Of a stretch of 41,610 nt of DNA, positions 12,562-41,610 are shown one piece after another. Source of the stretch: Candidatus Adlerbacteria bacterium (GTDB lineage Bacteria; Patescibacteriota; Minisyncoccia; Phycocordibacterales; SBAW01); NCBI GenBank assembly GCA_003135635.1, contig PLCJ01000001.1:174155-215764 (forward strand), given 5' to 3'. The position numbers and the translations under genes were made by a program. The notes below the pieces were generated by a model. The model searched no databases, was not told the DNA's origin, and saw only the letters and a list, made by a program, of their open reading frames with translations. Positions within the stretch are counted from its first letter, which is position 1, and every line of letters starts with the position of its first letter.

Positions 12562-12631
12562 TCTAGGACCCTCGGAGTTGGTAACTTAGCCCTTCAAAAA
12601 GTCATAAAAAGTGTTACAGTTGAGCCAAATC

Positions 12632-14161
12632 ATGGCACCGGACATCATCAAAAGCCTTGAAACTAGGCTCTGGGAAGCGGCGGATCATCTTCGCGCTAAT
12701 TCATCATTGAGACTCAACGAATTTGCCGAGCCTGTCCTAGGACTTATTTTTTTGAAATTTGCTGACGTCAAATTCACAACAGCCAAGAAAGAAATTGAGA
12801 GCGAAAATAAATCAGCTACTTCTAAGCGCCAGCGCCCGATAACTGCAGAAGATTACCAGTCTCGAGGTGTTCTTTTTGTGCCAGAGCAAGCCCGATTCTC
12901 ACATCTCATCGCTCTTCCGGAGGGAACGGATATGGGAAAGGCGGTAAATGATGCAATGAAAGAGATTGAAGCACAGAATAAAGACCTTGCTGGTATTCTG
13001 CCGAAAAATTACAACCTCCTCGACAATCCAGCCATCATTACTCTCCTTAAAAATCTCAATCATATTCCTGACAGTATCGAGGGTGATGCCTTTGGTCTTA
13101 TCTATGAATACTTCCTCGGCAAGTTTGCAATTGCTGATGGTTCTGGTGGCGGTGAATTCTTTACCCCAACCTCTATCGTCAAGTTGATTGTTGAAATTCT
13201 TGAACCGTATCAAGGCAAGATCTATGACCCCGCCTGTGGCTCAGGTGGCATGTTTGTGCAATCACTTGAGTTCATCAAACGACATCTTGAAAATGGCAAG
13301 AAGGCCAAGGCGTCTCGTGAGATCTCAATTTACGGACAAGAGAAAACTGATCAGACAGTACGCATTGCTAAAATGAACCTCGCTATCCACGGACTCTCTG
13401 GCGACCTTCGCCAAGGTAATACCTACTACGAGGACTTGCACCGCTCACTCGGCAAGTTTGATTTCGCAATGGCTAATCCTCCCTTTAACGTTGACGGTAT
13501 TGATAAAGAGCGAATTAAAGACGATCCTCGTTTCTCATACGGTCTGCCTCGCACTGATAACGGAAACTATCTCTGGATTCAAATATTCCTCAATGCTCTT
13601 AAAGTAGGTGGTCGTGCCGGCTTCGTCATGGCTAACTCTGCGAGCGATGCGGGATATAGCGAGAAAGATATTCGCCAAAAGCTCGTACACGATAGTTTGG
13701 TGGATGTAATGATCGCCGTTGGTCCAAATATGTTCTACAACGTCACTCTGCCGGTCACACTTTGGTTCTTGGATAAGGGAAAGAAGAAAACAGACCGCAG
13801 GGACAAAATCCTTTTTATTGATGCCCGCAATATCTATAGTCAAATTGATCGTGCGCACCGTGAATGGACAGAAGAGCATGTGCAGCAGATTTCAGAAATT
13901 GTTCGAAGTTATCGATGCGAGAAAGGCGCGAAGAAGTACAAAGATATAAAAGGGCTTTGCAAGGTAGCAAATCTGAAAGAAGTCGCAGATGCCGGGTATT
14001 CCCTCAACCCCGGACGATATGTCGGTGCAGTAGAATCAACCCAAACAGACGAGGATTTTGAATCTTCAGTCAAAGCTTTGCATGGCGAATTTTTGAAGTT
14101 GACCGAAGAAGCGCACGATCTTGAAAAGAAGATTGCGGACAATTTCAAAAAACTATTCTGA
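12632..14161 (+). CDS. hsdM: Type I restriction-modification system methyltransferase subunit HsdM
   Basis: GEFFTPTSIVKLIVEIL, IYDPACGSGGMFVQS, FDFAMANPPFNV (NPPF motif). Confidence 0.97.
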   Translation: MAPDIIKSLETRLWEAADHLRANSSLRLNEFAEPVLGLIFLKFADVKFTTAKKEIESENKSATSKRQRPITAEDYQSRGVLFVPEQARFSHLIALPEGTDMGKAVNDAMKEIEAQNKDLAGILPKNYNLLDNPAIITLLKNLNHIPDSIEGDAFGLIYEYFLGKFAIADGSGGGEFFTPTSIVKLIVEILEPYQGKIYDPACGSGGMFVQSLEFIKRHLENGKKAKASREISIYGQEKTDQTVRIAKMNLAIHGLSGDLRQGNTYYEDLHRSLGKFDFAMANPPFNVDGIDKERIKDDPRFSYGLPRTDNGNYLWIQIFLNALKVGGRAGFVMANSASDAGYSEKDIRQKLVHDSLVDVMIAVGPNMFYNVTLPVTLWFLDKGKKKTDRRDKILFIDARNIYSQIDRAHREWTEEHVQQISEIVRSYRCEKGAKKYKDIKGLCKVANLKEVADAGYSLNPGRYVGAVESTQTDEDFESSVKALHGEFLKLTEEAHDLEKKIADNFKKLF

Positions 14162-14162
14162 T

Positions 14163-15347
14163 ATGACTACGCAAACTTCTACAAAATGGGATGATTATCT
14201 CGTAAGAGATTTTTCGAAAGTAAAAGGTGGTAAACGGTTACCAAAGGGTCAGTTTGTGCAGAACGAAAAAACTGCCCATCCATACATTCGAGTTACAGAT
14301 ATGCATACCGATGGACTGGATGCTTCAAATATTAAATACATTACCGACGAGCAATTTGAGAAAATCAAAAGATATATTATTTCCTCAGACGATGTTTATG
14401 TAAGTAATGCTGGCACAATTGGATTAGTTGGGAAAGTGCCGCGCTGGCTTTCAGGGGCCAATCTTACAGAAAACGCTTTGAAACTTACCGACATAGATAA
14501 AAAGAAAGTCATTCAAGACTTTATAATTTACTTTCTACGAAGTTCAGTTGGGCAAGATCAGATTAAAGCGCGGACAGGTGGAAGTTCTCAGCCCAAATTA
14601 GCGCTAACAAGGCTCGCTGATGTGACAGTCACTGCACCTGATGTGCCAAGTCAAAACAGAATTGTGGATGTTTTGTCTGCTTATGATGATCTAATTGAGA
14701 ACAACAATCGGCGCATTAAAATTCTTGAGGATATTGCTCAGAAAATCTATACGGAATGGTTCGTAGAATTTCGTTTCCCTAGCTACGAAAAAGCAAAGTT
14801 TGGGAAAGATGGATTGCCTAATGGATGGAAGATGGCAAAAATTCGTGCGCTTATAGAGACCGTAAAGAGAAAGGAGAAATTAAAGACAGATCAGTATCTT
14901 TCGAATGGAATATATCCCATCATAGATCAAGGAAAGGATTTTATCGCTGGATATACAAACGATACGGACACCGTATACAAAGAGCATCTTATAGTTTTTG
15001 GAGATCATACTCGGTGTTTTAAATATTGTAATTTTGACTTTGCCTGCGGTGCAGATGGTACGCAATTACTCAAATCTAAAAATTCAGATAATTTACCTGA
15101 AATCCTTTTGTATTTTTTAGTAAAGAACGCAGATTTAAAAAGTAATCATTATGCTAGACACTTTAAGTTTCTAAAGGAAATAGAGGTGATAACTCCGGGG
15201 AAAAAGCTTGCACAAGATTTTGCAGAGTTGTGTGCACCAACTTATGAAAATATTAAACAGATGATGTTTAAGAATGTCATTTTACGCAAATCTCGCGATC
15301 TTCTCATACCGCAACTTGTAACTGGAAAGTTAGAAATAAAATCATGA
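14163..15347 (+). CDS. hsdS: Type I restriction-modification system specificity subunit HsdS
   Basis: Two target-recognition domains separated by a helical region (QNRIVDVLSAYDDLIENNNRRIKILEDIAQKIYTEWF), C-terminal LIPQLVTGKLEI; next to hsdM. Confidence 0.95.
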   Translation: MTTQTSTKWDDYLVRDFSKVKGGKRLPKGQFVQNEKTAHPYIRVTDMHTDGLDASNIKYITDEQFEKIKRYIISSDDVYVSNAGTIGLVGKVPRWLSGANLTENALKLTDIDKKKVIQDFIIYFLRSSVGQDQIKARTGGSSQPKLALTRLADVTVTAPDVPSQNRIVDVLSAYDDLIENNNRRIKILEDIAQKIYTEWFVEFRFPSYEKAKFGKDGLPNGWKMAKIRALIETVKRKEKLKTDQYLSNGIYPIIDQGKDFIAGYTNDTDTVYKEHLIVFGDHTRCFKYCNFDFACGADGTQLLKSKNSDNLPEILLYFLVKNADLKSNHYARHFKFLKEIEVITPGKKLAQDFAELCAPTYENIKQMMFKNVILRKSRDLLIPQLVTGKLEIKS

Positions 15348-18300
15348 ACGAATTCTCTGAAGATAAATTGATTGAACAAACAGCTGTCAATATATTTGGC
15401 GAGCTTTGGGGCGCAAAGAATTTTATTAATGCCTATTCTGAGGAAGGTGACGCATTGCTCGGTCGCGACAATCAAGGTCAGGTTGTCTTGGTAAATCGTC
15501 TTAATCTAGCGCTGGAGAAGTTAAACAAGGACGCTCCGCAGGAAGCCATCGCTCAAGCGGTTGAGGAACTGACCCGTGATCGCTCAGCGATGAGCTTGGT
15601 GAATGCAAACGCTGAGATATACAAACTTATCAAAGATGGTGTCAAAGTTGAGGTACGTGATGCGCGTGGAGGAATTGAGACAATAAGTATAAAGGTTATT
15701 GAATTCAGCGAAGCTTCTAAAAACGATTATCTCTTAGTGTCTCAGATGTGGATCACCGGCGATCTGCATAAACGCCGTCCTGACCTCATTGGATTTGTAA
15801 ACGGTCTGCCACTTGTTTTGATTGAGCTCAAAGCTTCGCATAAGAATCTTCGAAATGCCTATCAAGAAAATATCCGTGACTACAAAGACACCATTCCTCA
15901 GCTTTTCTGGCACAACGCGTTTATTATTATTTCAAACGGTATCGAGAGTAAAGTCGGAACACTGACATCTGCTTACGAACATTTCAATGAGTGGAAGAAA
16001 ATAAAGGATGAAAACGAAGAGAGTGGTGTGAGCTTAGAGACTGTACTCAAGGGAACATGCGAGCCATCTCGTCTTTTAGATATTGTTGAGAACTTTACGC
16101 TGTTTGACGGCTCACGAGGAGAACTCACCAAGATTGTCGCTCGGTACTTCCAGTTTCTTGGAGTAAACCGTGCTTTTGAGCGCATAGAGCACCGTGAGGA
16201 GAACGGGGGTCGTCTCGGTGTATTTTGGCACACCCAAGGCTCCGGCAAATCGTACTCCATGATCTTCCTTTCTCAGAAGGTATTTCGGAAGACGCATGGT
16301 AACTTCACTTTTGTATTGATTACGGATCGTAGAGAACTCGATAAACAGATCTACAAAAACTTCGTTGATTGTGGAGCAGAAAAGGATAAAGAGGTGCATG
16401 CAGACTCTGTAGAAAACCTGCGTGACTTACTTGGTGAGGACCATCGCCATGTCTTCACTCTCATTCAGAAATTCAATGAGCCTATCGAGCTCAATAAACG
16501 CAACGACATTATTGTCATGGCAGACGAAGCGCATCGTACTCAATACGACACCTTTGCAAAGAACCTGCGTATTGCACTCCCAAATGCCTCATTCATTGGC
16601 TTTACTGGAACTCCGATCATGGCCGAAGGTGAAGAGAAGACGCGTTCTACTTTTGGAGACTATGTTTCGACATATAACTTTGCTCAGTCAGTAGAAGACG
16701 GTGCAACGGTGCCTCTGTACTACGAAAACCGTGTGCCCAAGCTCGAAAACGCAAACCCTGAAATTCAAAAGGATCTTGAGAAGGTCATGGACTACTACGA
16801 TCTTGCTACTGATGAGGAAGACAAGCTCGAGCAGGAGTTTTCTACGTTCTACCACCTTATTTCTCGTGAGGACCGTTTGAATAAGGTTGCCGAGGATATT
16901 GTTACCCACTTCACTTCCCGAGGGTATGACGGCAAAGCGATGGTTGTCTCTATTGATAAGAAGACAGCTATCCGCATGTACGTGAAGGTAAAGGAACAGA
17001 TGCAACGTTATGTAGCCAAACTCAACATTGCCGTATCAAAAGCTAAGGACGATCACGAAAAGGAATCGATACGGGATCAAATTCACAAATACGAGGATAT
17101 CGACATGGCGGTGGTGGTAAGTCAGAGCCAGAATGAAATTGCAGACATGGAGGAGTTTGAGATCGATATGCGTCCTATTCGTGCACGCATACTCGACGAA
17201 GATCTTGAAACGAAATTCAAAGATCCTACTGACAACCTCAAGATAGTCTTCGTCTGTGCGATGTGGATGACGGGCTTTGATGTACCAAACCTTTCAACTC
17301 TCTACCTCGATAAGCCGCTTAAAAATCACACTCTGATGCAGACCATTGCTCGTGCGAACCGTGTCTATCCCGGTAAAACAAATGGCCTTATTGTTGATTA
17401 CATTGGTGTATTCCGCAACCTCCAGAAAGCTCTTGCTATATATGCAGTAAATAAGGATGGAACCGACGACATTATTAAGGATAAAGACGAGCTCGTCGAA
17501 ATCCTTTTTGCCTCTGTTGCAGAAACACGGAAATTCCTCAAAACTTTGGATCTCAATATCAACGACCTTCTTGACGCAAAGGATGTCGAGAAAATTCGTC
17601 TTGTTGATGTGTTTACAAACCGCATACTCGTCGACGAGCAGACAAAACAGAGATACCTAGAGCTCGCCGGTAATGCTCACAAATACTACAAGTCAGTTCT
17701 GCCTGAACCGAAGGCCGAGGACTACTACCAAGAAGTGACTGCATACAAGGTTATTGCTTCGCGCATTCGTGAGGTGATTGATGAGGATACTGATGTATCG
17801 CAGGTGAAGAAGGACTTGGAGGATCTCCTTGATCGCTCCATTCGTGCTGGCGAATATGTTATTAAAGATGTTCCAAAATTGAAGGATCTAAGCAAGATTG
17901 ATTTTCAAGCATTACGAAAGTTTTTTGATGACTCAGATACTAAGAATATTGAAGCCGAAGAGCTCAGTACTGAGTTAGAAGAGAAAATAAAGGAGATGGT
18001 ACGGAAGAACAAACTCCGCAAAGCTTTTCTTGATCGCCTGAATAGACTTCTCACTAATTACAATTCGGGCTCTCAGGATCTTGAGACCTTCTTTGAACAG
18101 TTGGTTGAATTGGCTAAGGATTTGAGTGAGGAAGACCGTAGAGCTATTTCAGAGAATCTCACCGAAGAGGAACTGGCTATTTTCGACCTCCTAAAAAAAG
18201 AAAACTTAAACCCTGATGAGGTGGATGAAGTTAAAAAGGTTGCAAAGGAACTCGTCTCAAAACTAAAGGCGGAGAAACTTGCACTTGATTGGAAGAAGAA

Positions 18301-18463
18301 GGAAGAGACTCGCGCAGACGTAAAGGTTACAATCCGCTCCCTGCTGTATGACAATCTTCCTGAGCCGACATATTCAGAAAGTGATTGCGAGGATCGAACC
18401 CAAAAGGTCTATTTGCATGTGTACGATAGTTATGCGGATAATAAAGTAAGCGTATATTTATGA
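15344..18463 (+). CDS. hsdR: Type I restriction-modification system endonuclease/translocase HsdR
   Basis: 1039 aa; GFVNGLPLVLIELK (nuclease), FWHTQGSGKSYSM (Walker A), MADEAHRTQYD, FIGFTGTPI, QTIARANRVYPGK. Confidence 0.97.
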   Translation: MNEFSEDKLIEQTAVNIFGELWGAKNFINAYSEEGDALLGRDNQGQVVLVNRLNLALEKLNKDAPQEAIAQAVEELTRDRSAMSLVNANAEIYKLIKDGVKVEVRDARGGIETISIKVIEFSEASKNDYLLVSQMWITGDLHKRRPDLIGFVNGLPLVLIELKASHKNLRNAYQENIRDYKDTIPQLFWHNAFIIISNGIESKVGTLTSAYEHFNEWKKIKDENEESGVSLETVLKGTCEPSRLLDIVENFTLFDGSRGELTKIVARYFQFLGVNRAFERIEHREENGGRLGVFWHTQGSGKSYSMIFLSQKVFRKTHGNFTFVLITDRRELDKQIYKNFVDCGAEKDKEVHADSVENLRDLLGEDHRHVFTLIQKFNEPIELNKRNDIIVMADEAHRTQYDTFAKNLRIALPNASFIGFTGTPIMAEGEEKTRSTFGDYVSTYNFAQSVEDGATVPLYYENRVPKLENANPEIQKDLEKVMDYYDLATDEEDKLEQEFSTFYHLISREDRLNKVAEDIVTHFTSRGYDGKAMVVSIDKKTAIRMYVKVKEQMQRYVAKLNIAVSKAKDDHEKESIRDQIHKYEDIDMAVVVSQSQNEIADMEEFEIDMRPIRARILDEDLETKFKDPTDNLKIVFVCAMWMTGFDVPNLSTLYLDKPLKNHTLMQTIARANRVYPGKTNGLIVDYIGVFRNLQKALAIYAVNKDGTDDIIKDKDELVEILFASVAETRKFLKTLDLNINDLLDAKDVEKIRLVDVFTNRILVDEQTKQRYLELAGNAHKYYKSVLPEPKAEDYYQEVTAYKVIASRIREVIDEDTDVSQVKKDLEDLLDRSIRAGEYVIKDVPKLKDLSKIDFQALRKFFDDSDTKNIEAEELSTELEEKIKEMVRKNKLRKAFLDRLNRLLTNYNSGSQDLETFFEQLVELAKDLSEEDRRAISENLTEEELAIFDLLKKENLNPDEVDEVKKVAKELVSKLKAEKLALDWKKKEETRADVKVTIRSLLYDNLPEPTYSESDCEDRTQKVYLHVYDSYADNKVSVYL

Positions 18464-18919: not shown

Positions 18920-20140
18920 ATGGTTAGTAAAGTTAAAATTTCACCGGAAGTATTGAAATGGGCAAGAGAGTCATTGCACTTGCCAGAAGAAGTAGTCTTG
19001 GCGCATTTCAATAAGAAGACGAAAAAGAAATTCAAGTTTAATGACTCGCTTTTGAGAAAGATCGAGAATGGAGGTGGTGAGGAGATTGCTTTTACTCTGC
19101 TTCAAGAGCTTTCGAGCCTTTATAAGCGTCCACTCGCAGTATTTTTTCTGGATAAACCACCAACAGAACCGGCATTACCAAACGATAGACGTACAATTAA
19201 TTCCGACGTTCACAAGATTATTTCTCCGGCCGCTGTGTTGGCGATACGCCGCGCTCGCTACGTTCAAGAAGTTTTCCGCGATTTGTCAAAAGAATTGGAA
19301 ATCAGTCTCAAGTTTCCATTCAGAAAGTTTACGCTTTCAGATGACCCTGTCGAAATGGGGAAAAAATTCAGAGAGATTTTAGATTTCTCTCTCGATGATC
19401 AAAAGAAAGTTCGAGATGCACGAGGGCTGTTTGATGCGATTCGAGTTAGGCTCGAAGGTGTAAATGTATTCACTATAAAGTCGTCTTTCCCATTAAAAGA
19501 CGCAAGAGCATTTTCGCTTGTCGATCAAACTCCTTATCTCATTCTCATAAATAACAAGGATGGGGGCTATTTTGGCTATGCGCCAAAGACGTTTTCGCTT
19601 CTGCACGAATTCACGCATATTCTCTTACGGGAGAGTGCTATCTGCAATGATTTTAACCACTCACATCAGCGGATCGAAAAATTTTGTAATAGCTTTGCAG
19701 GTTCTTTCCTAGTCCCAGATGAGTATTTTTGGGAAGTGTTGGAAATTACGCGAAAAGAATTTGATGTAGCAAATCTTGAGGATTATCTTGATACGCTCAA
19801 AGCCGCATTCAAGGTGAGCAGGGATGTACTTCTTCGGAAATGTCTCACTCTGAGACTGATTGACGATAATTTTTACAAAACGAAGATTCGAGAATGGAAT
19901 GAAGAATTTGAAAGGGAGAAAAAAGAGAAGGAAGAGAGAGGAGAAGAACAATTTATTCCAGCGATAACCCCAGGTCGCAGGGCAATCAGTAATAATGGAA
20001 GAAAATTCGTTGAGCTAGTTCTCCATGCACGGGGCGAGGGCAAAATTACCGTTGATAGTGCCGCCGATTACTTGGGGGTGAGCCTCAAGTCGTTGCCGGA
20101 GGTTGAAAAACTATCGGTAAGACCTCGCTCACATGCGTAA
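18920..20140 (+). CDS. ImmA/IrrE-family metallopeptidase (antitoxin-like)
   Basis: FSLLHEFTHILLRES (HExxH zinc motif), N-terminal region typical of COG2856-like proteins; overlaps the next ORF. Confidence 0.9.
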   Translation: MVSKVKISPEVLKWARESLHLPEEVVLAHFNKKTKKKFKFNDSLLRKIENGGGEEIAFTLLQELSSLYKRPLAVFFLDKPPTEPALPNDRRTINSDVHKIISPAAVLAIRRARYVQEVFRDLSKELEISLKFPFRKFTLSDDPVEMGKKFREILDFSLDDQKKVRDARGLFDAIRVRLEGVNVFTIKSSFPLKDARAFSLVDQTPYLILINNKDGGYFGYAPKTFSLLHEFTHILLRESAICNDFNHSHQRIEKFCNSFAGSFLVPDEYFWEVLEITRKEFDVANLEDYLDTLKAAFKVSRDVLLRKCLTLRLIDDNFYKTKIREWNEEFEREKKEKEERGEEQFIPAITPGRRAISNNGRKFVELVLHARGEGKITVDSAADYLGVSLKSLPEVEKLSVRPRSHA

Positions 20141-20630
20141 TTTATTTTCACAACCAAAATACACGATAGACACGAGTTCTCTGCTTGCGATGTTAAATCG
20201 TGGGGAGAAATATGACAAAGGGGTGTTCAAAAAACTCTGGGCGGATTTTCAGACATTATGCGATGCCGGAAAAGTTGTTTCCCATATTGAAGTCCAAAAG
20301 GAAATAAAAGGGGGTGGAATAAAAGATCAAATCGCATGGATAAAAACATATAAGCGAATCTTCCAGAAATATAATCTTCCCGATGAAGAAAATGTGATCC
20401 GAGATATTGGATCACGAGGCGGTCATTTCGTATCTTTTCTACAGCAACAAAAGTCAAAATCAGTGCATGCTGATCCATGGCTGATCGCACAGGCGAAAGT
20501 CGAGAATCTAATTTTGATAACCGAGGAAGCCGTGAACAGCCCTAAAAAAATTCCACAAGTCTGTATTGCATTGGGCGTGAAATCAATCAGTATCTTTGGG
20601 TTAATTCAGGAAGAAGGTTGGAGCTACTGA
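20133..20630 (+). CDS. DUF4411-like PIN-domain protein (toxin-like)
   Basis: YTIDTSSLLAMLNRG, SVHADPWLIAQAKVENLILITEE; overlaps the ImmA/IrrE gene by 8 nt. Confidence 0.88.
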   Translation: MRNLFSQPKYTIDTSSLLAMLNRGEKYDKGVFKKLWADFQTLCDAGKVVSHIEVQKEIKGGGIKDQIAWIKTYKRIFQKYNLPDEENVIRDIGSRGGHFVSFLQQQKSKSVHADPWLIAQAKVENLILITEEAVNSPKKIPQVCIALGVKSISIFGLIQEEGWSY

Positions 20631-20646
20631 ATCCTTACGCATTTTT

Positions 20647-21006
20647 AATGCGAGTGGCGATAGGTAGGATTTGACGCATCCGTTCATTAAGGAAAAGGCT
20701 TCGACATACACCCCAGTAGTCCTCTAAGTCCAGTGTTGGTAACCCGCTTCGCAAGCCCCCTAATCTAAGCTAGGGTGTCAGACGGTAGCCTAGGTGCTAT
20801 CATGTCCTTGTACAACTTAATAAAAAGGGCCTAACCCGGAGACTCTCTCCGGCAAGGTCGACAAATCCCTTCGCAGACACTGAACCCCGCGTTCAGCAGC
20901 TCTGCGAAGGGTCATACTTGGAAACGGGTATGGGGACGCAAGTCTCGGCTGGCGCGGGGTTCAGTGTTTGATCTCCACGCCGGGCTTATCAACTAGCCCC
21001 GGCAGT
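20647..21006 (+). ncRNA. Candidate structured RNA / long regulatory leader with pseudoknot potential
   Basis: Several perfect helices: CCGGAGA/TCTCCGG (20836-20852), GGTAGC/GCTATC (20784-20801), 11-bp CCCTTCGCAGA(20867-20877)/TCTGCGAAGGG(20901-20911), 14-nt CACTGAACCCCGCG(20878-20891) complementary to CGCGGGGTTCAGTG(20953-20966), GNRA hairpin GGGAC-GCAA-GTCTC (20933-20946). Boundaries uncertain. Confidence 0.65.
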
Positions 21007-21507
21007 ATGAAAAAAATAATCGGTTTTAAATCAGGAGGAACAATCTTTTCAGGAATAGCAGGAGAATATTTTGTTGCGGCCGAGCTTTCCAGAAGAGGAT
21101 GCATCGCTAGTGTAACCCTTAGAAACACAGAGGGGATCGATATCCTTGCGAGCAATGGAGAGAAAACTGTAAATATACAAGTTAAGACAAGACGCACTGA
21201 TAAAACAAACGGCTGGAATTTCGGAGGCAAAAAATTAGAATCCAAAAAAGAATGGAACAATGTTTTTTATGCGCTTGTAGAGATTTCTTCCAATCCGATG
21301 GAAAAAACAGTGAGTTACTACATAATTCCAAAAAACGAACTCAACGAGAGAGTGGAGGATAATTTTCAAAGATGGCTACACGGAAGCAAGAAAAACGGTG
21401 AACCGAGAAAAAGCAAAATGAGGATGTGCATCCCATCGGAACTTAAAGAATTTTTGGATTTTCGAGTTGAAAGATACAAAGATAGATGGGATAGACTTTT
21501 TAATTAA
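21007..21507 (+). CDS. PD-(D/E)XK nuclease-like protein
   Basis: GIAGEYFVAAELSRRGCIASVTLRNTEGIDILASNGEKTVNIQVKTRR fits E...D-x(n)-QVK PD-(D/E)XK layout; ATG at 21007 preferred over TTG at 20968. Confidence 0.7.
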   Translation: MKKIIGFKSGGTIFSGIAGEYFVAAELSRRGCIASVTLRNTEGIDILASNGEKTVNIQVKTRRTDKTNGWNFGGKKLESKKEWNNVFYALVEISSNPMEKTVSYYIIPKNELNERVEDNFQRWLHGSKKNGEPRKSKMRMCIPSELKEFLDFRVERYKDRWDRLFN

Positions 21508-21527: not shown

Positions 21528-22148
21528 ATGGACACATTTTTACTTCTCGTCATCTCGGTGCTTCTCGGTTTAGTGCTGTACGAAATCGGGAGAATTTTCG
21601 AGCGCAATATGCACCAACCGCCACCAAAATACACTCCCAGTAAAAATCTTATGATGAATAAGGACTCGGACATGTATGCGCTCTACTACACTGACATGCT
21701 CTATCCTGTATACGGAAGGGAAACAATACTAACTATCCAAAGAGCCTACAGGGATTGCACTCATAAAGCATTCGACCTAGAGATTTTTGGTATCAGTCAT
21801 GCCAGTGAGGCGGACAAGAAAAACAAGGAAATAGAGTGGCGCATCCAAGAGATGTACAAGATAACACTAGAGAAGAATTTGACACTAATGATGCAAGCTA
21901 ATCTCGACGTTCTTAATGGAAAAATATCTATTGAAGAAGCCCGTCGCCAAACAGTGAATGCAGTCGATATCAACAATGCTATGATACCGCCACTTGCTTC
22001 TAGACAAATTGCGATTGATGTCCATGCTGGCGTAGGACGTCCTATGTACGAATATTTAGATTTTAATTTTCTTAATAAACTAAATAAAGAGAGACAAAAA
22101 CAACATAGCCAAAATGACACGCAAGAGGCTGCACTAATGTCCAAATAA
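21528..22148 (+). CDS. Hypothetical membrane-anchored protein
   Basis: 206 aa with N-terminal TM helix. Confidence 0.65.
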   Translation: MDTFLLLVISVLLGLVLYEIGRIFERNMHQPPPKYTPSKNLMMNKDSDMYALYYTDMLYPVYGRETILTIQRAYRDCTHKAFDLEIFGISHASEADKKNKEIEWRIQEMYKITLEKNLTLMMQANLDVLNGKISIEEARRQTVNAVDINNAMIPPLASRQIAIDVHAGVGRPMYEYLDFNFLNKLNKERQKQHSQNDTQEAALMSK

Positions 22149-22150
22149 AT

Positions 22151-22873
22151 ATGCAAAGAGAAAAAATCAAAACCTACACAATATTTTTTCTCCTAATTGT
22201 TATTGTCGGCAGTATCTACTTTTTCAATCGGCACACAATACCAAAGGCAGATTCGTTGGGTAGGCCTGACGACCTGATTTCAAATCAACCGTTCCCTACA
22301 CTCCATCTTCCGTCAAAATATTTCTTAAATAAAGACATAACTGGGGAAGAAGTAGATACCGCCTCGCCCCTCTTTGGTAAAGTGAGTGAGAGTAACTGGC
22401 CTTGGACATCGGCAAGTATTGATAGCATAGACAATTCTCAAACCTATCCGACCAAAACAATTTCTTTCACTCGCTATTTCAACGAGGCAAAACCACTTTC
22501 ATCTATAGATGCGTCAAGTTATTCGGTTGAGAAGAAGACTATCAGCGCTGAGGGCGACGGATCAAAAGAAACGGTAGAATTTCTTTGCTCGACTGGTGGT
22601 TCGTCCGCCGGCACTTGTGGCGAAGCGTACATAGTCAAAGGCAACACAGTGATATTTCATGCCACTGACGACCATCGTGTTGATATCCTGCCTTCACCTA
22701 CAGGAAATGGCTTCTACGTTAAATCGGAGAATGATGTTTTACAGCCTGCAGAGTGTTGTGCTCTCGGGTATGTGAAAACCCGCTTCGTCTATGACGGCAA
22801 GGAGTTCAAACCAATTTACGAGCAGACCGTCTACTACCTCAACGTGCAGAATGGTACAAGCACCAGTCTCTGA
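22151..22873 (+). CDS. Hypothetical membrane-anchored/exported protein
   Basis: 240 aa, N-terminal TM IFFLLIVIVGSIYFF; 2 nt after the previous stop. Confidence 0.65.
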   Translation: MQREKIKTYTIFFLLIVIVGSIYFFNRHTIPKADSLGRPDDLISNQPFPTLHLPSKYFLNKDITGEEVDTASPLFGKVSESNWPWTSASIDSIDNSQTYPTKTISFTRYFNEAKPLSSIDASSYSVEKKTISAEGDGSKETVEFLCSTGGSSAGTCGEAYIVKGNTVIFHATDDHRVDILPSPTGNGFYVKSENDVLQPAECCALGYVKTRFVYDGKEFKPIYEQTVYYLNVQNGTSTSL

Positions 22874-23969: not shown

Positions 23970-25361
23970 TTAATTCTCTTTTCCAATCGAGTTGATTCGG
24001 GCTAGTAGCTTACCCAACTGTTCAGAGACTGTCTCTTCAACCTCGCGTGGCTTAGGCTGCTCTAGACCGGATTCAATATCCTTGCCGCCGTTTTCATACC
24101 ACTCTTTGAAACGGCCGGGATTGACATGAGTTTCCAGGTATTTAACCATGGCCCGCGCCCTTAAATCACGCTCCTTTTGTCTGGCCTCCGACAACTCGAT
24201 ACGTTGCTGTAATGATTTTTTCACTGAGGCCTCCGACGCGAATTTTCTGATTGAAGCTATCTGAACGCTCATCAGTGGAGTGTCCAAATTTACATTTCCG
24301 AAGTATCGAAGGTATAAAGGATCATCTTTGTGCGCGTCGTGAGGCGTCGGCATTTTCCGCGAGAACGGGACAGAGATGCGGAACTCCTTCATCTGCGGTA
24401 TGAGCGGGAGTTGGTAGGAGAGCGGCGATGCTATGAACCCTTTCCAACCCTCCGATTCTGCAACAATAAGTTCATATATGCTTACCGCGCTGTCCTTCTG
24501 TGAGCCAAGCATCTTCAGCAGAAACTCCCGAGTCCAAACTTCATGTGGAACCAGCTTTGTGAGGGCTTCGACGCTCTCAATGTCCGGATACCTCCCGGGC
24601 CATAGGATACGCTGTTCGTCATCGATGATGGGGTAGGCGCGGAAGATTCCATCTGACTCGCCATTTTTGATTCGTGCCTTCAGCCGCATGAGCAACGAGT
24701 CCTCGCAGACAAGATTTCCAAGAAGCACAACTCGGGTATCGTCGACATTTCCGAGAGGCAATATCTCGCTGGTAAAGCGCCGGTATATCTTTTCCCGCTT
24801 CGCCTCTTCATGCGCCGAGTCGCTGCTTTCAATGTCGTCGCAGACGATGAGGTCAGGACGCAGGGCACCGTGCTTCATACCGCGTGCGCCCTGCTCGATC
24901 GAGATAGAGGCTATTTTTGAGCCGTGATATACAAGCTCGAGCGACGCATTGTTCCACTCGCTTCCGCGCTCAGTGAAGGGCCCGAAGTCCTCCCGCAGTA
25001 GGTCGTTGTGCTCGAGCTCTTCCTTGATGTTCGTGAAGTGGTCCACGGCCTGCCCCAGCGTTTGGCTCACCACCACGGCGAATTTCTTCTGCGGCTTTCC
25101 AAGGATCGACCACAACACGTTCGCCGTGTTGAGGATCGCTGACTTGCCGGATCCGCGAAATGCCATGACTACGATTAAGTCGTGTTTGGTCTGCTGGATG
25201 AGATGGAACATCTCCATGTGGAACGGCGCGAACGGATCCTTGAAGTGGTGCCGCAGATAAATGAGGCCAAACCACAGCGGGTCTTCGTAAGCTAAGCGCT
25301 TTCTGACGCTCTGGTTGCCGAGTATTTCACGCAACTTTTTTGGACTTATGTTTTTTGGCAT
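23970..25361 (-). CDS. Phage terminase large subunit-like ATPase
   Basis: Walker A VMAFRGSGKSAIL, Walker B-like LIVCDDIESSDS, coupling motif-like VVLLGN; N-term FHMEMFHLIQQ. Confidence 0.85.
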   Translation of the reverse strand: MPKNISPKKLREILGNQSVRKRLAYEDPLWFGLIYLRHHFKDPFAPFHMEMFHLIQQTKHDLIVVMAFRGSGKSAILNTANVLWSILGKPQKKFAVVVSQTLGQAVDHFTNIKEELEHNDLLREDFGPFTERGSEWNNASLELVYHGSKIASISIEQGARGMKHGALRPDLIVCDDIESSDSAHEEAKREKIYRRFTSEILPLGNVDDTRVVLLGNLVCEDSLLMRLKARIKNGESDGIFRAYPIIDDEQRILWPGRYPDIESVEALTKLVPHEVWTREFLLKMLGSQKDSAVSIYELIVAESEGWKGFIASPLSYQLPLIPQMKEFRISVPFSRKMPTPHDAHKDDPLYLRYFGNVNLDTPLMSVQIASIRKFASEASVKKSLQQRIELSEARQKERDLRARAMVKYLETHVNPGRFKEWYENGGKDIESGLEQPKPREVEETVSEQLGKLLARINSIGKEN

Positions 25362-25776
25362 AGGTATTCTTTCCGCCGGACGAGAGCGCGAGGGCGTGTT
25401 TAATTAGCCGCTCTTCTTTCGCGGTCGGCTCCGATATTTGTGCGGGCTGCGTGCGCGACGCCGCGCGAGCGCCGTAGCGAGCGGAGTTGTTCCTAAGGTA
25501 GAAGATAATAGCCGGCAGTTTCTTTTCTTTGACGAGCTGAATGGCTTGCGTTTCGCTCATATCGCAGATGAAGTCGACGCCCTGCTTGAACGCTTCGCCG
25601 CTTGCCTGCGCGAACGCACTATCTTCCCGGCACCATCGGTAGTACGTGGTGCGGCCGATGCCGCTCCTTTTGCAGGCGACTTCGATGACGGGCGTTTCTC
25701 GGAGCGTATCGAGAAATTTCGCCTTTGAGTCGGCTTGGCGCTTTTCGATGGTTTCGTCGTATGTCTCGTTAGCCAT
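25327..25776 (-). CDS. HTH protein, terminase small-subunit-like
   Basis: MANETYDETIEKRQADSKAKFLDTLRETPVIEVACKRSGIGRTTYYRWCREDSAFAQA; start at 25776; overlaps the TerL-like ORF. Confidence 0.75.
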   Translation of the reverse strand: MANETYDETIEKRQADSKAKFLDTLRETPVIEVACKRSGIGRTTYYRWCREDSAFAQASGEAFKQGVDFICDMSETQAIQLVKEKKLPAIIFYLRNNSARYGARAASRTQPAQISEPTAKEERLIKHALALSSGGKNTYAKKHKSKKVA

Positions 25777-27115
25777 GGATTTTACTGGGGGTGAGGCCGG
25801 TAAGTTTTTCGAGGCGCTTAAGAATGACTGCGGTATAGGTCGGCGACTTCTCCATGAGGAAAAAGCGTCGGCCGAGCTTCCACGCGGCCACGGCGGTGCT
25901 GCCGCTGCCACCGAAGGGCTCAAGCACGACGTCGCCGCGCTTGGTGAGTACCTTTATATACGGCACGAGCAGCTCGATGGGCTTGGTCCCGAAGATGATG
26001 CCTTGGCCGCTACTTTTCTCATCCGCCGCGACGTGGGTTATGAAGTCCGTAGGGCATATCTTTTTACCTTTTTCATAGGACTCGAACTGGGGCTTTCCGC
26101 TCGTCGCAAAGATGGCGTTCTCATACTCATTCTGGAAGAGCCCATCCTCCGGCTCGAGATTAAGAGGCACATCACCGCCCGTGCCGACGAGCGCGATGTC
26201 CTGCTTATTGAAGAACTTATATTTCGCGGCGAAGCCCTGCACGCGATTCGGAACGTGCCACGTGATGGTATTGCGGTATCGCCAGTGTTTCTCCATGGCG
26301 TTCCAGATGGTGCGAAGATTCTTTGGGTGCTCGAAGATGAGGATGGAGAAGTCCGGCTTCTGCACCTTCGCGACGGCTGCCATCCATAGGTCGGAGAAGT
26401 CGTCCGGCAATGTTTCGGTACCGAGATAGACGCGGTTTTTCTTGGCTCCGAAGCCGCGCGTGACGCCGTCCTTCTGTTTCGTCTTGCCTTTGAGGTAATC
26501 GAGAATATACGGAGGGTCAGTGCAGACCATGTCCGCCTTCGCGCCGTCCATGAGCGCGAGCATGTCGGCTTCGACCATGCTGTCGCCGCATTGCACGAAC
26601 GAGTCGCCGAAGGCGAATTTGTCGCCGGGCTTGATGTCTATATCCCCGATGCCGAGTTTCGTCAGCTCTTTTTTGAGGTCGAACTGCTCGGGCGTCTCCT
26701 CGACGGCGAAGATAGTATCTAGGTCCTCGCTGGTGAACCCGACACCCGACAGGAACATCTCGTCGAATTCGGCAAGAAGTTTGAAATCCCATTCGCCCAC
26801 ATTTTTATTGAGACGAAGGTTCAGCTCGCGCTCTTTCTCTTCGTCAGGAATGTCGACGTATACCGCCGGGGCTTCGGTATGACCGAGCAGTCTCATGGCG
26901 GCCAGCCGCATATGGCCGCCGATGAGAATGTTTTTGCGATTGGGCGCGGCATTGAGGATGATCGGGTCGACGGTGCCGAAGAGCTTGATACTATCCGCAA
27001 GCGTGTCGAGAGCCTCTTTGGACCACTTACGCGGGTTGTAAATCGCGGGCTCTATACTGCCGACGGGGACATAGACGATTTTTAAGCTTTGTGTGGGCGT
27101 GTGTATCTTATCCAT
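25769..27115 (-). CDS. ParB-like N-terminal domain fused to DNA methyltransferase
   Basis: N-term IYNPRKWSKEALDTLADSIKLFGTVDPIILN...GGHMRLAAMRLLG (ParB/Srx-like); CTDPPYILDY (DPPY) and EPFGGSGSTAVAAWKLGRRFFLME (SAM site). Confidence 0.93.
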   Translation of the reverse strand: MDKIHTPTQSLKIVYVPVGSIEPAIYNPRKWSKEALDTLADSIKLFGTVDPIILNAAPNRKNILIGGHMRLAAMRLLGHTEAPAVYVDIPDEEKERELNLRLNKNVGEWDFKLLAEFDEMFLSGVGFTSEDLDTIFAVEETPEQFDLKKELTKLGIGDIDIKPGDKFAFGDSFVQCGDSMVEADMLALMDGAKADMVCTDPPYILDYLKGKTKQKDGVTRGFGAKKNRVYLGTETLPDDFSDLWMAAVAKVQKPDFSILIFEHPKNLRTIWNAMEKHWRYRNTITWHVPNRVQGFAAKYKFFNKQDIALVGTGGDVPLNLEPEDGLFQNEYENAIFATSGKPQFESYEKGKKICPTDFITHVAADEKSSGQGIIFGTKPIELLVPYIKVLTKRGDVVLEPFGGSGSTAVAAWKLGRRFFLMEKSPTYTAVILKRLEKLTGLTPSKIHG

Positions 27116-27116
27116 A

Positions 27117-27617
27117 TTATTTTTTCTTATCGCTTTTAATCTCCATACCAGCGAGCCGCAGGAACATCTCTACGTCTTTTGCACTACATTTTTCCCCTTG
27201 CGTCTTGAGGTATAAGCCGCCTATAACATCGGGCACACGCTCAGTCATCCATTGCTTCATGACTTGGTAGACAAGGGTGGCGAACTGAGGGTGTTTTTTC
27301 CAATCAGTCAGCGTGTCCTGGCACACTCCGATTGTCTGGGCAAATTCCTTCTGTGTTTCTGGTTCGCGAAATTGGTGAGGTGTGGCGCACCATATGACGA
27401 ATTTGATAAACTCGGCGTGGCGATTGACGCCGACAACAACCGGCAAGAAATCGGAGTGGATCGGAGTTACCCCTGCCTGAGAGTCAGCTTCATTTTTAAT
27501 TTTTTCCGGCATAATTTGCTCGGGTGCACCGCTACCTAATAAAATAAAAACCTGATGGTGCTTCCCATCGTTATTAACAGTATCCTCGATCACCTCGCGC
27601 GTATAAGAATTAGCCAC
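27117..27617 (-). CDS. HTH protein (phBC6A51-like / terminase small-subunit-like)
   Basis: FREPETQKEFAQTIGVCQDTLTDWKKHPQFATLV. Confidence 0.7.
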   Translation of the reverse strand: MANSYTREVIEDTVNNDGKHHQVFILLGSGAPEQIMPEKIKNEADSQAGVTPIHSDFLPVVVGVNRHAEFIKFVIWCATPHQFREPETQKEFAQTIGVCQDTLTDWKKHPQFATLVYQVMKQWMTERVPDVIGGLYLKTQGEKCSAKDVEMFLRLAGMEIKSDKKK

Positions 27618-27624
27618 CCTACAC

Positions 27625-28368
27625 TTATTTCCTCCGGCTTTTTTCTAGCGATATTATCTTTGCGATTTCCGAGTATTCAAAATACCTCTCTTTGGTAGCA
27701 AATTTGTCATTGACGAGTCCCATAAGTTTTTTCCTCGGGAGATCTCGGTTCTGATAGATAAATTCATTCAACTGTCGGGAAGACTCTTTTCGTGTCCTCA
27801 ACTTAGTAATCTTTGAGCGCGGCCTTCGATATTTTTTCTGAAGGCGGAGAATGTGTGGACCATAGACTCTATTTACATACTCCACAATATCCTCTTTGCT
27901 TGCATCGGGACTGATACGCAGGGCGATTGGATACAGATAGTCATCGTCATTTTGCGTAGCTTGTACAAATGGGTGTTTTTTCTCTTCGACTATATCGCTG
28001 ACGACCAACAGTTCGTAGGTATCTGGCCGACTCGGGGTCTCTGCTCTGTTATAAAGAATAAATGTTGTAATTGCCTCCGACCCTTCGAGATGGTGCAGAA
28101 GGTAGTGTCGACATATTCTCTGGATTTTCTTTTCTAGCTTTTGCCGAATTTGGCGATTGTCCTTGTAGCGCCACTCCTTAGGTGGATATGGGTACTCTGC
28201 GCCTGCCGTAAACCCTTGTTCTGGTATATCTAATTCCGTTCTCGTCTTTGCGACGAATGCGCGAAAATCATCCTTATCAAAAATATACAATATCAGATTT
28301 TTGATTTTCTTATGCCCGCCCGCCGCCGGACGATCTTTCTTTTTTCCCACTATCTTTTGATGATACAC
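27625..28368 (-). CDS. Hypothetical protein
   Basis: 247-aa basic ORF, same operon orientation as the packaging-like genes. Confidence 0.65.
   Translation of the reverse strand: MYHQKIVGKKKDRPAAGGHKKIKNLILYIFDKDDFRAFVAKTRTELDIPEQGFTAGAEYPYPPKEWRYKDNRQIRQKLEKKIQRICRHYLLHHLEGSEAITTFILYNRAETPSRPDTYELLVVSDIVEEKKHPFVQATQNDDDYLYPIALRISPDASKEDIVEYVNRVYGPHILRLQKKYRRPRSKITKLRTRKESSRQLNEFIYQNRDLPRKKLMGLVNDKFATKERYFEYSEIAKIISLEKSRRK

Positions 28369-41261: not shown

Positions 41262-41610
<349 letters not shown>

Follow-up and report, generated by a model that had tools for sequence, protein, structure and literature searches.

Described systems and the locus in the window

LOOT (Rfam RF03000) is an RNA family that is already catalogued, as an sRNA and without a known job, and its 28 “cross-covariations” have been called an extreme case (PMC7657543). 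The family is characterized by an architecture of four hairpins with conserved CCUAA.C and GGCAUGG segments. Transcription-terminating riboswitches and attenuators, with which the RNA is compared here, have a promoter of their own, competing helices, and a U tract followed by an ORF. Second-messenger riboswitches have diverse surface-protein genes as their targets. On the protein side, the closest described enzymes are the I-Ssp6803I and Hjc-type PD-(D/E)XK nucleases with the catalytic residues E, D, and QxK. The organisms concerned are Patescibacteria, a very large and poorly cultivated branch of episymbiotic bacteria.

The window, meaning the whole stretch of 41,610 nucleotides analyzed here, belongs to a genome of 602,608 bases with only one LOOT copy, which lies directly upstream of a gene for a nuclease-like protein. 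This copy agrees with RF03000 in its full-length match, the four hairpins, and the conserved segments. The Rfam model, however, does not extend to the G-rich strand and U tract that follow LOOT and can pair with hairpin 2, and the genomic evidence describes a cis leader, whereas the Rfam type is sRNA. With terminating riboswitches and attenuators the LOOT leader shares the promoter, the competing helices, and the ORF that follows, and most loci of the family also have the U tract, which is degenerate in the window; as with the riboswitches, diverse cell-surface genes stand behind one RNA. It differs from them in that LOOT is the sole Rfam match near the nuclease gene, with no known aptamer at the locus, and in that termination by LOOT is a prediction. 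The nuclease-like protein has the predicted fold and the catalytic residues of the I-Ssp6803I and Hjc-type enzymes but, unlike I-Ssp6803I, is encoded outside any group I intron.

LOOT RNA in the window

The LOOT RNA was identified with cmscan at 20828–20946 of the plus strand with 81.1 bits (E 6.7e-14), covering positions 1–121 of the 121 in the model, for which the gathering score is 46.4 bits. Folding of 20813–21009 gave −95 kcal/mol (z −7.0), and 0 of 200 shuffles folded equally well. Together with the LOOT match, this bears out the strongly structured RNA that the sequence-only reading had placed directly 5' of the ATG at 21007. The 5' boundary at 20647 proposed in the same reading was abandoned, as 20631–20811 folds no better than its shuffles (z +1.1) and a conserved promoter and start point lie near 20798–20812. 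The RNA therefore probably begins at about 20812 and is smaller than stated before. A −10-like box, TATCAT, occurs at 20798–20803 (+) as part of the leader's own promoter and follows the consensus of a TATAAT-like box plus ACAA, while the −35 region of this promoter is weak, with no convincing candidate for a box. The conserved ACAA(T/C)TTAAT at 20812–20821 (+) is the probable transcription start region, judging from its spacing.

All elements of the RNA lie on the plus strand. Hairpin 1 (20828–20859) carries the conserved internal loop CCUAA-C / GCAUGG, a candidate sensing site, as seen from the fold and the conserved columns. Hairpin 2 (20867–20911), the antiterminator state in the reading proposed below, consists of an outer stem of 11 bp (20867–20877 / 20901–20911), which covaries, and an inner stem (20880–20885 / 20891–20896). 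It is followed by hairpin 3 with a GGAAAC loop (20913–20932) and by hairpin 4 (20933–20946). The 5' arm of a long-range, terminator-like helix lies inside hairpin 2 (20874–20897), and its 3' arm together with a degenerate U tract (GCUGGCGCGGGGUUCAGUGUUUG) occupies 20948–20970; the helix was assigned by fold and covariation and the tract by its U count. One more hairpin, at 20979–21003, ends 3 nt before the start codon, exactly as had been noted from the letters, and agrees in sequence, position, and fold. Among the near-invariant LOOT positions (UAA.C, GGCAUGG, and the GNRA-type hairpin 3), the window copy has all but one, with GCAAGG in place of GCAUGG.

LOOT as a 5' leader in Patescibacteria

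Of 380 genomes sampled from the phylum, 84 contained LOOT, in as many as seven copies, and 106 loci were oriented for the analysis of their downstream and upstream sides. An ORF of at least 70 aa on the same strand, starting 20–100 nt 3' of LOOT, was found in 74 of 104 loci, compared with 428 of 6,111 random positions (7.0%) and 19 of 105 loci on the antisense side. The median distance from LOOT to the ORF was 58 nt, and in about a quarter of the loci the ORF was further off or too short for this strict test. A second set comprised 71 other loci, fetched by sequence pattern from named genomes; 63 of them had an ORF downstream, and the ATG lay 35 nt (median) past the U tract. In about 100 loci whose genes are unrelated, the median spacing from U tract to start codon is 33–35 nt. 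The named matches of LOOT loci were almost all Patescibacteria.

Upstream of LOOT, a TATAAT-like box followed 6–8 nt on by ACAA occurred in 60 of 106 loci, compared with 8.5 (sd 2.7) in shuffles, and the same consensus was recovered in 47 of the 71 loci of the second set, compared with 4.7. Between the U tract and the ATG, −10 boxes were not in excess across the 106 loci (33 observed, 32.4 expected). Because the promoter stands 5' of LOOT and none was seen between LOOT and the ORF, the ORFs can hardly be transcribed except through LOOT. The leader position downstream of a promoter, as in a cis-acting attenuator, is a property of the family, including the window with its box at 20798. The two independent sets of loci give good support to LOOT being a cis leader.

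Where two leaders are related, their similarity at the DNA level usually spans the promoter, LOOT, and the tail, and ends before the ORF. In genome G012, two copies of promoter and LOOT leader (L053 and L072) stand before different genes; they have 86% similarity between −47 and +270 and stop resembling each other precisely at the start codons, which suggests that the leader is copied as a module.

Several other roles were considered and rejected. A ribosome-recruiting leader was dropped with Shine-Dalgarno sites in 15.7% of LOOT genes compared with 13.8% of other genes. A leaderless promoter in the U-rich tract, with a −35 box at constant spacing from the ATG, was dismissed as well, given that the spacing varies (sd 12 nt) and that −10 boxes show no excess. 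A search for phage-borne LOOT with a loose pattern returned 53 stretches in viral contigs, only 2 of which were LOOT-like, and LOOT is not a typical phage RNA. Clear LOOT RNAs were seen on two contigs of a viral collection (L169:5002 and L197:4756), which may be viral or host DNA. Pattern matches also appeared in records labelled Saprospirales and Pacearchaeota (L225, L235, and L258), which are probably binning errors.

Competing helices

Immediately 3' of LOOT, a conserved G-rich strand (consensus GCUGGCGG.GGGCUUU) is followed by the U tract. Pairing of this strand with the apical half of its own hairpin 2 scored 25.0, compared with 15.6 (sd 0.34) when it was permuted against the LOOT of other loci, and the best of 2,000 permutations reached 16.8. 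The same test gave no signal with the hairpin 1 region, which served as the control. In the 71 new loci the long-range pairing was found again, with 24.5 compared with 17.0 (sd 0.40). RNAalifold preferred the long-range helix in its consensus of 71 sequences, and nearly all pairs of this helix had compensatory changes. Parts of hairpin 2 are misplaced in the MAFFT alignment; the permutation tests are independent of it. The outer stem of hairpin 2 covaries as well (own 24.5, permuted 12.7, sd 0.26).

The long-range helix has a median length of 17 bp and overlaps hairpin 2 by a median of 9 nt. At least 5 nt are shared in 102 of 106 loci, so that the two helices are mutually exclusive. Past the long-range helix, at least 6 U in 9 nt were counted in 88% of loci compared with 20% in the background. 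Two conserved helices that exclude each other, one of them a terminator-like stem, correspond to what is found in a cis-acting attenuator, and competition of this kind would explain the cross-covariation described for LOOT (PMC7657543). As points against a switch, the minimum-free-energy fold kept hairpin 2, and not the long-range helix, in three quarters of loci, and part of the long-range pairing may be a tertiary pseudoknot that forms through the loop of hairpin 2 and coexists with it. A third segment further 3' also pairs with the G-rich strand (16.05 compared with 12.8, sd 0.27).

Three features make the window copy atypical. At 23 bp and −21 kcal/mol relative to the LOOT-only fold, it has the strongest long-range helix among the 106 loci, while its U tract has 5 U in 9 nt where most loci have 6–8. 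The third is the hairpin before the ATG, which is particular to this locus: the region from −30 to +15 is the second most stable among 89 LOOT genes, with −14.3 kcal/mol compared with a mean of −4.1 kcal/mol. With a very strong terminator helix and a poor U tract, the copy, if it terminates as predicted, may be OFF for the most part, or its effect may fall partly on translation, by way of that last hairpin. It is also possible that the copy is decaying.

Genes behind LOOT

The proteins encoded behind LOOT are mostly unrelated to each other, and their ORFs have no single pathway in common, which is why no ligand is suggested by them. A strongly hydrophobic segment, however, was found in 62 of 89 of these proteins (70%), compared with 22.5% of control ORFs at the same loci. 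The difference persisted among proteins of 80–400 aa, with 56 of 76 compared with 193 of 815 (Fisher P 4e-18), and in the second set, with 43 of 61 compared with 88 of 413 (P 6e-14). These counts rest on a simple hydropathy threshold as the transmembrane test and on mechanically called downstream ORFs. The remaining proteins include DNA methyltransferases, SNase-type nucleases, and other nuclease-like proteins.

In the window, a gene for a membrane-anchored protein with an N-terminal hydrophobic segment (21528–22148, +) begins 20 nt past the stop codon of the nuclease gene, and 2 nt after its end comes a gene for another protein with such a segment (22151–22873, +). These ORFs are possibly the second and third genes of the nuclease unit. 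With two adjoining ORFs of this kind, the unit fits the membrane-protein pattern. The membrane proteins that accompany the nuclease in the putative operons of the window and of G012 showed no homology to one another.

The nuclease-like protein

The gene at 21007–21507 (+) encodes a nuclease-like protein of 166 aa with a predicted PD-(D/E)XK fold, as assigned by alignment, AlphaFold2, and Foldseek. In 13 aligned proteins, i.e., the window protein and twelve relatives, E20, D45, and V59-K60 are invariant, and the window protein has Q58-V59-K60. The AlphaFold2 model reached a pLDDT of 78 and a pTM of 0.75, and Foldseek against the PDB returned EcoRV, Hjc, the SPARDA nuclease, and I-Ssp6803I at E 1e-3 to 3e-3. 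Structural alignments with I-Ssp6803I and Hjc-type enzymes had 13–19% identity, and PDDEXK_5 gave a weak match. A PDB sequence search with the nuclease profile returned no match, and no close relatives were found in contigs of named genomes. A HARE-HTH domain, as it occurs in restriction enzymes, is present in some relatives.

The PD-(D/E)XK arrangement that the sequence-only reading had recognized is sound at the level of the fold, with the predicted structure and the E / D / QxK residues of the I-Ssp6803I type. The likeness to I-Ssp6803I itself stands at that level (E about 2e-3), and a special closeness does not, because other PD-(D/E)XK enzymes score equally.

Proposed mechanism

The most economical reading of these data would be that the competing helices control transcription termination. 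We consider it probable, from the arrangement of the sequence elements, that the LOOT leader is a cis-acting terminator/antiterminator: a riboswitch-like attenuator, still an orphan, that serves a regulon of Patescibacteria. Transcription would start from the promoter just upstream, about 15 nt 5' of LOOT. LOOT would then fold into its four hairpins, after which the polymerase would copy the G-rich strand and the U tract. Where the G-rich strand displaces hairpin 2 and pairs with its apical half, the long helix and the U's would form an intrinsic terminator. Where hairpin 2 is kept folded, the terminator would be blocked and the gene starting 25–95 nt past LOOT would be transcribed. Which of the two folds prevails would depend on a signal that LOOT binds, with the internal loop of hairpin 1 and the surrounding junction as the probable site. 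In many loci, the third segment would capture the G-rich strand after read-through and lock the ON state; it is made only after the decision on termination and could hold this state.

LOOT thus resembles a transcriptional on/off switch more than a partner of the nuclease. A cis-regulatory switch limiting the expression of a toxic nuclease had been one of two proposals made from the letters, and it survives in its general form; the specificity for toxic nucleases is lost, as dozens of genes unrelated to each other, mainly encoding membrane proteins, have LOOT in front of them. The other proposal was a single system of RNA and nuclease, whether RNA-guided, RNA-inhibited, or a mobile RNA with a homing nuclease. 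The RNA does adjoin the nuclease gene in the window, the protein resembles the homing enzyme I-Ssp6803I among others in its fold, and in G012 a nuclease relative is the second gene behind a LOOT, which lies ~900 nt 5' of it with a membrane-protein ORF between. LOOT is, however, associated with unrelated genes in 84 of 380 genomes, and no group I intron model matched in 20400–21200 around the nuclease locus. Nuclease relatives were detected in 16 of the 380 genomes, the window genome included, and LOOT in 4 of these 16, which is about what chance gives, so that the expected excess of co-occurrence did not appear as any clear enrichment. Within roughly 1.5 kb on each side of the relatives outside the window genome, LOOT was present at 1 of 16 loci, the one in G012, and absent from 15. 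Both observations, LOOT at unrelated loci and its absence beside nearly all nuclease relatives, answer the checks set in the sequence-only reading, and they go against a combined unit. RNA and nuclease gene thus do not co-occur at loci as in OMEGA-like systems; the nuclease was dismissed as the partner of the RNA, and we regard a common system as extremely improbable.

That LOOT is a trans-acting sRNA, with the genes behind it merely neighbours, would agree with its own promoter and terminator-like 3' end and with the Rfam type line, “Gene; sRNA”. An independent transcription unit was nevertheless not what the loci displayed, as no promoter signal separates LOOT from the unrelated ORFs that start at a consistent short distance, the genes behind it are strongly biased to membrane proteins, and the homology of leaders ends at the ORF. 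We hold a purely trans-acting role to be improbable; a dual role, as cis leader and trans sRNA, is possible. A constitutive structural 5' leader, serving as an mRNA stabiliser or as a localisation or ribosome-recruiting element with the long-range helix as a static pseudoknot, is unlikely as well, if somewhat easier to entertain. Pairing of 6–7 bp between loop and tail could coexist with hairpin 2, and the membrane-protein bias would fit localisation or protection. The full helix of 17 bp, in contrast, is sterically incompatible with hairpin 2 through the 9 nt that they have in common, the U tract is conserved, and the Shine-Dalgarno frequencies give no sign of special ribosome recruitment.

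The cis-acting attenuator may be extended to a broader reading, which we advance tentatively and would not yet call likely. LOOT would be the sensor of a global, Patescibacteria-specific regulon, in which one aptamer, with a second messenger, a host-derived metabolite, or a protein as its signal, controls whether the genes for surface, secreted, and DNA-modifying proteins are transcribed in organisms living on other bacteria, and which spreads as a copied module of promoter plus leader.

Genomic surroundings

Directly 5' of the LOOT promoter, at 18920–20630, a DUF4411 gene and a gene whose product has an M78 (ImmA/IrrE-like) peptidase domain overlap each other, in the arrangement of a toxin-antitoxin pair. 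Further upstream (12611–18463), consecutive genes resemble, by their translations, a type I restriction-modification system with methylase, specificity, and restriction subunits. On the minus strand, phage-like genes for a terminase-like ATPase, a ParB-like/methyltransferase fusion, and an HTH protein at 23970–28368 suggest a prophage remnant or a mobile island adjoining the LOOT unit. Around the nuclease relatives in other genomes, a tRNA gene was close by at 4 of 16 loci (L134, L137, L145, and L147), which may hint at insertion sites of islands.

The window also touches the rRNA genes of the genome, of which the single 23S and 5S genes (1–901 and 963–1076) are unlinked from the single 16S gene (41266–41610). 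The 23S gene (C3:171843–175055) and the 16S gene (C3:215420–216682) lie on the same strand about 40 kb apart, and the 16S match is 1,263 nt long though the whole model is covered. A group I intron was matched in the 23S gene at 395–578 of the window, just above the gathering score (51.3 compared with 50 bits).

Significance of the LOOT leader

New in this analysis are the position of LOOT, the downstream partner helix, and the gene set, part of which may stand in the original description of the family. With them, an orphan Rfam family gains a testable mechanism. An inducible expression element is said to be missing for genetics in Patescibacteria (PMC11665869), and LOOT could supply one. If the proposed reading is true, a single RNA class would stand before surface-protein genes as well as restriction genes in roughly one in five Patescibacteria genomes, and this would be one of the few regulons in these bacteria that can be read from sequence alone.
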